DNA from: Leptonema illini DSM 21528
GTDB lineage: Bacteria > Spirochaetota > Leptospiria > Leptospirales > Leptonemataceae
Assembly (NCBI RefSeq): GCF_000243335.1
Contig: NZ_JH597773.1
Location: forward strand, 1,261,989-1,325,988
Reading direction: 5' to 3'
DNA: 64,000 nt
In this document: positions 37,462 through 40,258 of the stretch, piece by piece
Position numbering within the stretch: position 1 is the stretch's first letter
How the letters are laid out: every line of letters starts with the position of its first letter
Notes under the pieces: model-generated
What the model saw: only the letters and a program-made list of their open reading frames with translations
The model's database searches: none
Told to the model about the DNA's origin: nothing
Program-made: the position numbers and the translations under genes

Positions 37462-38643
37462 TCAGAGCTTGAAGTCGACGCAGGCCGGTCGCGGGCCTCC
37501 GCGTTCGGCCTCTTCAGAGAAGCAATCCGCTTCGACGAAACGCCCCGAGCCGATGAGCACGCTACGGGCAAGGGCGCGAAACTCCCTGTTGCGTTTGCGT
37601 TCCGGGCCCATGATGACGTCGAGTATATGAAGCTGTCGGTAGGCTTCGTCGTACCTCCGATCAGTAGCGAGCAGGGCGCCCATCTCAAGCCTTGCCTGAA
37701 CCTCTGAGCTGCGATCGCTCGTCGCTCCCTCAAAGCGGTTAAGCGCCTTCTCGCGATCGTCCTTTCGCTTCAATCGCAGATAGATGCGAGCCTGATTCAG
37801 ATACAGCATGCCGAGTCGGTCGTCGGGCGACGTATAAATGAGCTTATCGGTGATACGGGCCGCTTCATCGGGGGCGATGCAAACGAGCCTGAAGTCCGTG
37901 CAGGGCTCTTCGGGATCGGCGGGCGCCGCTCCGCCTGCATAGCGACGCAGGGCCATGATGTATTCTCCGCGGTTCTTCAGCGTGCTCAGCACAAGAAGCT
38001 CTTTTTCAGCGGGAAAGGGCAGACGCAGTTCGAGATCCTTATCGGCCTCTAAAAGGACGCGGTAGGCACGCTTTTCCTGGAAATAGGCGTAATCTCCCCA
38101 GACGCGAAGAGCGGGATACGGATTGCATAACGCCGCTGCCAGCCGATCTACAAGATCGGGAACAAGCAACGCCTCTTTTTCTGTGATCTCGGCCGGAATC
38201 TCGTAGGCATACAGGCTGGCTTCGAGCACCGAATGCAGCGCAATCGATACGGTTTCTCGATGCTGCTTCCAGTAGAGATCAGCGGGCAGATCGGCATCGT
38301 CCGTGAACTCTTTGCGCTGCATATACTGCTGCAGCCAGTCTTTCTGAAAGAACTCCTCGTCGGCTCTGTAAGAGTGCTTCAGAGCGGCCGGACAGCTACC
38401 TGCCATGCGCCCGAGGTCGATCCTTTCGTCTTCAAGGGAGGCGAGGGCGTCGTCGATGAAATCATAGGCCCTTGAGGCGTTCTGTGTGCCCGGCTCGGGC
38501 AGATTCTGGGTAAGACGATAGAGATACGAGAGCAGCTCGAAACGGTGTTCGAAGATATAGTATCCGGCGGCAGTCCAGAAAACAGCCAGGAGAAGCAGTG
38601 GTGTCCGGTACTTCCGGATCTGTCGCAGAATCAGTTTCAGCAT
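37462..38643 (-). CDS. membrane-anchored, TPR-like unknown protein
   Basis: The product is 393 residues. A basic N-terminus and one span (TPLLLLAVFWTAAGYYIF) anchor it in the inner membrane with the rest outside. The body is helical; near the C-terminus LGMLYLNQARIYLRLKRKDD and ARLEMGALLATDRRYDEAYR look like two tetratricopeptide-type helical hairpins. Cysteines are scattered without a motif. It is followed at 10 bases by the cysteine-desulfurase-like gene, so the two may be functionally linked. I recognise no named family. Confidence 0.7.
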   Translation of the reverse strand: MLKLILRQIRKYRTPLLLLAVFWTAAGYYIFEHRFELLSYLYRLTQNLPEPGTQNASRAYDFIDDALASLEDERIDLGRMAGSCPAALKHSYRADEEFFQKDWLQQYMQRKEFTDDADLPADLYWKQHRETVSIALHSVLEASLYAYEIPAEITEKEALLVPDLVDRLAAALCNPYPALRVWGDYAYFQEKRAYRVLLEADKDLELRLPFPAEKELLVLSTLKNRGEYIMALRRYAGGAAPADPEEPCTDFRLVCIAPDEAARITDKLIYTSPDDRLGMLYLNQARIYLRLKRKDDREKALNRFEGATSDRSSEVQARLEMGALLATDRRYDEAYRQLHILDVIMGPERKRNREFRALARSVLIGSGRFVEADCFSEEAERGGPRPACVDFKL

Positions 38644-38694
38644 GTGTGATTAAAAAAGGCTGGATTCCCGGATGAGTTGCAAAAGGCTGTGCCT

Positions 38695-38799
38695 ATGGCA
38701 CATTCTAAAAAGATTAACGTCCAGCGCAAGCACAGAAAACGTCTGAAGAAGCTGAAAGAGCGTCGTCGGGCCCTGATTGCCTCCGCTAAGAAAAAGTGA
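38695..38799 (+). CDS. 34-residue highly basic protein
   Basis: A short frame reads MAHSKKINVQRKHRKRLKKL and continues KERRRALIASAKKK to a TGA at 38799. About half of the residues are Lys or Arg. AAAGG lies eight bases before the ATG. The composition and helical pattern are those of tiny ribosome-associated proteins (compare bTHX and the AURKAIP1/COX24-like basic peptides), but I cannot match it to either. It stands alone in the gap between two divergent genes. Real gene likely; nucleic-acid or ribosome binding is inferred from charge. Confidence 0.65.
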   Translation: MAHSKKINVQRKHRKRLKKLKERRRALIASAKKK

Positions 38800-38839
38800 G
38801 AGTAATCGGATTCAACGATTGAATCCTCTGGCAGGGAAA

Positions 38840-38860
38840 AGGCGAACTTCGCGTTCGCCT
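38840..38860. terminator. GC-rich hairpin after the basic mini-gene
   Basis: A perfect 8-bp stem AGGCGAAC / GTTCGCCT (38840-38847 with 38853-38860) has a 5-nt loop. On the plus strand no T-run follows; on the minus strand TTTTCCC does. It may end the mini-gene transcript about 40 bases earlier, but the missing plus-strand T-run makes this uncertain. Confidence 0.4.
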
Positions 38861-38901
38861 GTCTGTCGAAAATAAACGATGCAAATACGGAAAGGCAAAG
38901 C

Positions 38902-39690
38902 ATGAAGGTCAGAGCCCAGGTCAGAGCGATCCTCACCATCTCAGTATTCCTGCTCGGTTGTCAGTCAGCCGTTCGCGGCGAACCGACAGAAGAACCCGAG
39001 AAGAACGAGATTGAAGCGACGACGGATAGCGAGGCCTTTCGCAGCGAAGTGAAAAAGCTCTATGAGCCGGCGCAATGTTTTCGCACAAACTTCGCCGTCA
39101 CGCTAACCGTTCCGGGACAGGGAGCGCAGACGGCCGCCGGGCTTCTGCGTGCCGATAACGGCAATCAGCGCATGCGCATGATCCTGACCGAGCCGAATCT
39201 CGGCATCACACTCAGCTGGATTACGATTAAAAGCGGAACGGCCTACGTGAGCAATCCGCGGATGGCCGGTGTGCAGAGAGTCCCTCTTGAGGGATTCGAG
39301 CTGCAGAGCATGGGCACGAATAACATCCAGCTTCCGTTTACGCTGTTTCAGGATATTCTCTACGGCGGACTGCCGGCCGGCCTGTACGGCGAGAATACGA
39401 AGTGGGAGCCGACAGAGACCGGCTACAGCGCTCGCTTCACACAGAACGGCGACGCCTTCGAATATCGTTTTAATAAAGACTATCGAGTCGAACGCATCCT
39501 CTACGCGAAAGCAGGCGGCAACTACAACGCCGACATTGTGTTGAAAGGCGTATTCTACAATACGATCTTTCCGCAGTGGTTCGCCATCCAGACCTACGCC
39601 GGCGGTCGTCCCTCTGAAACGATGCGCATCGTCTTTCAGGCCGCCGATTTCAAGGCATGGTGTAAGGACGAGTACTTTCCCGTTCAGTAA
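38902..39690 (+). CDS. lipoprotein, LolA/LolB-like candidate
   Basis: The product is 262 residues. Signal peptide with lipobox FLLGC (Cys20); GGAAAGG precedes ATG 38902. The mature part begins with an acidic linker, then a run of alternating strands (CFRTNFAVTLTVPGQ, TAAGLLRADNGNQRMRMILT, SGTAYVSNPRMAGVQRV, TGYSARFTQNGDAFEYRFNK) with the order expected of a LolA/LolB half-barrel that carries lipid. That fold assignment is by pattern only. Signal and anchor are clear; the exact role is not. Confidence 0.75.
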   Translation: MKVRAQVRAILTISVFLLGCQSAVRGEPTEEPEKNEIEATTDSEAFRSEVKKLYEPAQCFRTNFAVTLTVPGQGAQTAAGLLRADNGNQRMRMILTEPNLGITLSWITIKSGTAYVSNPRMAGVQRVPLEGFELQSMGTNNIQLPFTLFQDILYGGLPAGLYGENTKWEPTETGYSARFTQNGDAFEYRFNKDYRVERILYAKAGGNYNADIVLKGVFYNTIFPQWFAIQTYAGGRPSETMRIVFQAADFKAWCKDEYFPVQ

Positions 39691-39730: not shown

Positions 39731-39770
39731 CTGAAAAGTGCTGGAATAGCCCTTGAATCTGTGCTATCCT
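39731..39770 (+). promoter_or_regulatory. candidate dps promoter with shared upstream 15-mer
   Basis: CTGAAAAGTGCTGGA (39731-39745) overlaps a -35-like TGGAAT; after 17 nt comes a -10-like TATCCT at 39765-39770. The same 15-mer occurs at the same relative place before the gene at 49409. No PerR- or OxyR-type box is obvious. Confidence 0.35.
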
Positions 39771-39790
39771 GTCTCCAAACGGAGGCCATT

Positions 39791-40258
39791 ATGAAAATCG
39801 ACATCGGAATACAGGAAGCGGATCGCCAGGCCATTTCAGACGGATTGAAGCGTCTGCTTGCCGATACATACGTTCTTTATTTGAAAACACATGGTTATCA
39901 CTGGAACGTCACCGGGCCCATGTTCGAAAGCCTGCATAACAGCTTCATGACGCAATACACCGAACTCTGGAACGCCATCGACCCTATTGCAGAGCGCATC
40001 CGTTCTCTGGGTTTTTTCGCTCCGGGCACCTATTCCGAGCTGGGCAAGCTCACCTCGATTAAAGAGGATAGCTCCGTTCCGGCAGCCACCGACATGCTCA
40101 AGAACCTGGTCGAAGGACATGAGAGCGTTATCCGTACGGCACGCAGCGTTTTCGCTGCGGCCGAAAAAGGATCGGACCAGGCGACGATGGATCTCTTAAC
40201 TCAGCGTCTTGACGTTCACGAAAAAACGGCATGGATGATCCGCGCCGTTCTTGGCTGA
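39791..40258 (+). CDS. dps: Dps ferritin-like DNA-protection protein
   Basis: The product is 155 residues, the normal length. It has the ferroxidase ligands of the dodecamer interface: [20 protein letters not shown], then [15 protein letters not shown]. Dps stores iron, detoxifies hydrogen peroxide and often coats DNA. There is no Lys-rich N-terminal tail, so DNA binding may be weak. GGAGG five bases before ATG 39791 decides the start against an upstream alternative at 39761. Confidence 0.95.

Follow-up and report, generated by a model that had tools for sequence, protein, structure and literature searches.

A conserved 34-residue lysine- and arginine-rich protein encoded in Leptonema illini and its relatives

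Judged from its own sequence and that of its relatives, an open reading frame of 34 codons in Leptonema illini is a real and easily overlooked gene of this species and of its family. We did not find it described in the literature searched, which lay mostly outside subscription journals and small-protein catalogues, and as far as these searches reach its product represents an undescribed family, of a general kind that is known: small, basic, lineage-restricted proteins. The role which we tentatively consider the most likely is that of a clade-specific helix that would bind RNA or the ribosome. The gene adds a conserved family of about 34 residues, unmatched in the libraries searched, to the branch near Leptospira, and it illustrates how a tiny gene can occur in one genome and be lacking in another whose slot is otherwise similar.

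The gene and its conservation

The window, i.e. the whole stretch of 64,000 nucleotides that was analysed, corresponds to positions 1261989-1325988 of a 4,325,094-base contig; the Leptonema illini genome comprises 4,522,760 bases in 3 contigs. The features of the region, in positions of the window, are the following.

37462..38643, minus strand: divergent neighbour, 393 amino acids, without a Pfam match at E<=0.01, adjoining the small gene in 13 of 14 genomes
38637-38939, antisense to the small gene: overlapping open reading frame of 100 amino acids, from the list of open reading frames
38652..38657, plus strand: A-tract, its end 37 nt upstream of the small gene's ATG, a putative UP/-35 promoter part judging by its spacing
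38681..38686, plus strand: AAAAGG, the sole Shine-Dalgarno-like stretch of the small gene, weak by duplex energy and not conserved
38695..38799, plus strand: the small gene, encoding the 34-amino-acid Lys/Arg-rich protein, recognised by its reading frame, conservation, dN/dS and the comparison of sense and antisense
about 38808..38868, plus strand: two stem-loops, predicted by folding, between the small gene and the next gene, without a U-run
38902..39690, plus strand: downstream neighbour, 262 amino acids, lipoprotein-like N-terminus by eye, with a DUF4292 match just below the cut-off

The small gene is composed of an ATG and 33 further codons (34 in total), followed by TGA, and its product is MAHSKKINVQRKHRKRLKKLKERRRALIASAKKK. 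Lysine and arginine account for 16 of the 34 residues (47%), and for 18 of 34 if histidine is included, which bears out the original prediction of a Lys/Arg-rich protein of 34 residues, about half of them basic. By lysine plus arginine content it ranks first among the 281 ATG-initiated open reading frames of 25-60 amino acids in the window, the runner-up having 38%, and in the 14 members of the protein family, L. illini included, this content ranges from 39 to 52%. Other matches of this type are absent from the L. illini genome (E<=10). The ATG at 38695 aligns as the start in all 14 members (its own included), and an alternative TTG start 18 nt upstream would yield an extension that is not common to the relatives. 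By eye the protein has neither a signal peptide nor a membrane segment. A single helix covering residues 2-33 is predicted by AlphaFold2 from the one sequence with no alignment (mean pLDDT 91.9); such a prediction is to be expected for a peptide of this kind, and the pLDDT says little on its partners.

Relatives were sought in 61 genomes with the single sequence; the profile searches covered the class with 48 genomes and the phylum with a sample of 344. One single-sequence match (L013, in G019) was removed before counting, as it is an unrelated frame without ATG, and partial matches of E 0.09-1 were excluded from the counts. At E<=0.01 the profile matched 14 of the 22 genomes of the Leptonema family (its own included), distributed over 9 of 13 genera, and 0 of the remaining 322 sampled Spirochaetota, so that the gene is conserved and clade-specific, as had been expected. 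The relatives in the 14 genomes match end to end; M1, S4, K5, V9, K12, H13, K15 and K21 are invariant in the alignment, and R14 and K32 nearly so.

For five close pairs (dS was computable in 5 of 8) dN/dS was 0.025-0.105, with dN of 0.03-0.10 and dS of 0.65-2.6. These low values show selection on the sense frame. Codon-position counts alone are undecisive, because the third positions of the small gene and of the antisense open reading frame fall on the same bases. That the reading frame is spurious, or that the coding strand is that of the 100-amino-acid antisense frame, has practically no chance of being correct: the gene is short and the antisense frame is free of stops across it in 12 of the 14 loci, but amino acid identity is higher in sense than in antisense in 89 of 91 genome pairs (means 0.516 vs 0.364), and dN is higher in antisense than in sense in all five close pairs tested. 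A frame lacking both conservation and a translation signal, the case that would have spoken against the gene, is not what was found.

A contig scan for occurrences outside the phylum confirmed only two loci, both in spirochaete MAGs, using one degenerate pattern that recovers 2 of the 14 known loci, too few to speak for absence beyond Spirochaetota. A phage search gave no match, a weak result given a consensus-like query and the BLAST low-complexity filter, and viral contigs likewise gave none, again a weak result obtained with one degenerate pattern. Nothing significant was found for the protein or its profile in Pfam, NCBIfam and the PDB sequences, the profile scans being based on the first 12 aligned members.

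Upstream signals, neighbours and the slot without the gene

A ribosome-binding site had been claimed in front of the small gene, and this claim does not hold. AAAAGG has a duplex energy of -4.1 kcal/mol in L. illini, where shuffled sequences average -3.0 (sd 2.65); this is no better than chance, and the signal is not conserved, since the value is -0.4 or weaker in 8 of the 14 genomes; for the ribosomal protein gene bS22 the values in ten of the 14 genomes are -3.2 to -7.7.

A run of five or more A residues ends 35-40 nt upstream of the ATG in all 14 loci. Among mechanically chosen control starts such a run ends 35-41 nt upstream in 6 of 178 from GC-rich and 16 of 119 from AT-rich regions, a comparison to be read knowing that the distance range was picked after inspection of the loci and that members of the same genus are not independent. 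The A-tract also lies near the start of the divergent gene, yet it is retained in G014, whose divergent gene is found on another contig than the small gene. Three genomes without the small gene also have a similar A-tract, whose end lies 40-42 nt upstream of the next gene's ATG. So rigid a distance to the first open reading frame, whichever that is, suits a promoter that leaves only a very short leader, and suggests that the mRNA of the small gene is near-leaderless. In Leptospira interrogans leaderless mRNAs are reported to be common (PMC5243855).

Scans of 38400-39100 detected no sigma-70-type promoter, and there was no Rfam match in 38400-39200. In the Leptonema family the A-tract might form the core of a class of promoters. 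A regulon of translation genes marked by the pattern TTAAAAAA-N1-4-TGG was considered and rejected; the genome contains the pattern 16 times and its reversed form 5 times, and by eye the other 15 occurrences are not followed by translation genes.

The hairpin announced behind the gene is not confirmed: stem-loops are predicted there, the 111-nt stretch folding with -29.9 kcal/mol, but the z score is only -1.74, with 10 of 200 shuffles equally good, a U-run is lacking, and the scan of 38400-39100 found no terminator on the plus strand.

Nor does the gene stand alone, as the original prediction had it. Its distance in L. illini is 51 nt to the divergent gene and 102 nt to the following gene of the same strand, and in the relatives a run of envelope-type genes begins with it, at times with an overlap between it and its successor. 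Five genomes have spacings of -4, -4, +1, +1 and +2 nt to the following gene, and seven have +15 to +102 nt, with starts chosen mechanically and TTG in three of the five close-gap genomes; in G005 and G010 there is no long open reading frame starting near the end of the small gene. Directly 3' of it in 8 of the 14 genomes is a gene for 516-795 amino acids with a hydrophobic N-terminus (TPR-like by eye), and a DUF4292-like gene is found at most two listed genes downstream in 12 of the 14. The conserved neighbours are either envelope-type, resembling genes for secreted proteins or lipoproteins, or without a family match, and translation genes are not among them. A mechanical open reading frame of 100-126 amino acids is present between the small gene and the divergent gene in the window, in G003 and in G005. 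The divergent 393-amino-acid gene is present in 20 of the 22 family genomes. Further downstream in the window, at 39761-40258 on the plus strand, is an open reading frame that by eye is Dps/ferritin-like.

Some family genomes have the slot but lack the gene. The divergent gene and the TPR-like gene (by eye) face each other in G001, G013 and G016, and no open reading frame of the small type lies between them; in G012, where 85 residues of the divergent gene are present, no such frame follows, which makes four genomes with a visible but empty slot. This assessment excludes G008, G009, G019 and G021, in which the neighbour gene was not found or matched partially. The presence/absence tree, from which G012 (84 residues) was left out with 19 of 20 rows kept, requires two changes in the presence of the small gene; as its root serves for drawing only, the tree leaves gain versus loss undecided.

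Possible roles of the protein

As an RNA- or ribosome-binding helix the product would be a cytosolic protein of 33-39 residues that forms one basic alpha-helix, at least when on RNA, and would act as an accessory ribosome- or rRNA-binding element with its helix in an RNA groove. The contacts would be made by the invariant K12, H13, K15 and K21 together with the nearly invariant R14, and further ones may come from a sparse hydrophobic stripe formed by V9 and residues 17 and 20, the latter two belonging to the stripe in 12 of the 14 members. The protein would work like bS22 or eL41 without being a member of either family. The 5' end of its mRNA would probably lie no more than about 10 nt from the ATG, and translation of the downstream genes from this transcript is likewise probable.

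Composition, the single-helix prediction and the conserved basic and histidine positions fit a ribosomal reading and make it plausible. It is weakened by the lack of a ribosomal family match, by the envelope-type neighbours, by the four genomes with the slot and without the gene, and by an intermediate codon usage. Highly basic peptides in general tend to look RNA-binding and helical. Of the earlier remark that such proteins are often ribosomal and clade-specific, the second half stands, and the first is plausible. Should the protein be located on the ribosome, it would count as a ribosomal protein specific to this lineage, with a datable gain or loss and amenable to a deletion test in a culturable spirochaete. 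The more elaborate picture of a family-specific ribosomal protein, a second tiny basic helix besides bS22 on the ribosomes of the Leptonema family, encoded on a near-leaderless mRNA shared with outer-envelope genes, is possible but doubtful; were it true, ribosome make-up and envelope biogenesis would be placed under one promoter.

Codon usage gave an equivocal answer. In L. illini the codons of the small gene resemble those of a set of 16 translation genes, with an LLR of +4.2 bits and, under the ordinary-gene model, P = 0.006. The test is weak because bS22 of the same genome, taken as control, is itself not distinct from ordinary genes (P = 0.113). When repeated over 13 genomes, leaving out G007, the mean z of the small gene was +0.78 versus ordinary genes (negative in 5 of 13) and -0.71 versus ribosomal-protein genes; the bS22 control over 10 genomes had +1.23 and -0.18, respectively, all of these figures coming from related genomes and not being independent. 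The small gene is placed between ordinary and ribosomal-protein genes, and the repeat weakens the signal of the single genome.

A rather unlikely alternative is a cytosolic protein that binds nucleic acid or another polyanion away from the ribosome (nucleoid, mRNA, sRNA), or a small protein that balances charge. The same composition and helix evidence would suit it, as would the absence of translation genes beside the small gene and the equivocal codon usage, while Pfam and NCBIfam offer no match to a DNA- or RNA-binding family.

It is quite unlikely that the protein is a partner of the gene group, helping to make, anchor or regulate the secreted TPR-like and DUF4292-like proteins. Its first position in the group, the close spacing to the next gene in 5 of the 12 genomes measured (-4 to +2 nt; mechanical starts, TTG in three) and the DUF4292-like gene within two listed genes in 12 of 14 could be explained in this way. 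However, the small gene is kept where the TPR-like gene is not adjacent (6 of 14), without a nearby DUF4292-like gene in G005 and G010, and without both in G010, and the protein has by eye no segment that would take it to or across the membrane.

Decidedly unlikely is a regulatory upstream open reading frame, in which the act of translation and not the product controls the genes behind. Such a function would agree with the overlap of stop and start in G014 and G018 (a TTG start in the latter) and with the similar A-tract that lies about as far upstream of the next gene in the three genomes lacking the small gene; against it are the amino acid constraint along the peptide and the retention of the gene when the downstream genes change.

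Comparison with bS22 and other tiny ribosomal proteins

Among the closest known counterparts of the RNA- or ribosome-binding helix proposed here is bS22/mS38 (AURKAIP1, COX24_C, PF08213), which like the small protein is very basic and helical and has about 30 residues in bacteria. It binds the pocket of 16S h2/h27/h44/h45. A precedent is the Borrelia ribosome, for which bS22 and bL38 are described, ribosomal proteins that are tiny or had escaped annotation; bS22 was found there though unannotated (PMC10618245).

Identity with bS22/mS38 was the initial lead. Size, charge and the KHRK core resemble mycobacterial bS22 by eye, yet a divergent bS22 is extremely unlikely, as a clear bS22 is encoded elsewhere in all 14 genomes that carry the small gene. 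Five solved bS22 chains, combined with four loci from spirochaetes, gave a bS22 profile that matched 42 of the 48 genomes of the class (Leptospirae), these 14 among them. The bS22 of L. illini is located at G000:C1:1553179-1553265 on the minus strand (E 5.1e-8, sequence MPSGKKRKRRKIRTHKRKKKRKLNRHKKKLR); two further matches in this genome are weak (E 0.15 and 0.65), and neither is at the small gene. With a separate bS22 in every one of these genomes, the two genes coexist. They differ in sequence motif and match each other's profile in neither direction: the bS22 profiles list no match to the small protein at E<=1, hhalign gave no usable alignment, with a single column aligned between the two profiles, and the best E value of the small-protein profile against 8029 frames (13 ribosomal-protein regions, 17 bS20 loci and 13 bS22 loci) was 0.76. 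This calls for caution in naming every tiny basic protein of spirochaetes bS22, since here the real bS22 is a different gene. The Pfam model COX24_C (PF08213), in contrast to the bS22 profile, had no match over its cut-off in the 61 class and phylum genomes, and none in L. illini at E<=1.

The short basic helix of eL41 is another likeness, and in the PDB the chains of eL41 come closest to the small-protein profile. They make up three of the four sequences listed, none of these significant (E 1.9-2.3, with a profile of biased composition); the match spans profile positions 13-32 only and does not speak for common descent. The fourth, apCC-Di-B, is presumably a designed coiled coil. bTHX (PF17070), a short, basic and lineage-restricted protein of the small subunit, is similar in these three traits; at E<=0.01 it has no match in the 48 Leptospirae genomes, L. 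illini included.

The first residues of the small protein resemble by eye those of bS20 (PF01649), M-A-N-x-K, and the bS20 of L. illini begins with A-N-I-K after its start. A fragment derived from bS20 was rejected, as the sole PF01649 match of the L. illini genome, a full one, lies elsewhere and the small-protein profile misses the 17 bS20 loci. PF01649 scores over its cut-off in 17 of the 22 family genomes, L. illini included. The five genomes without this match have a completeness of 78-89%, and two of them, G004 and G007, carry the small gene.
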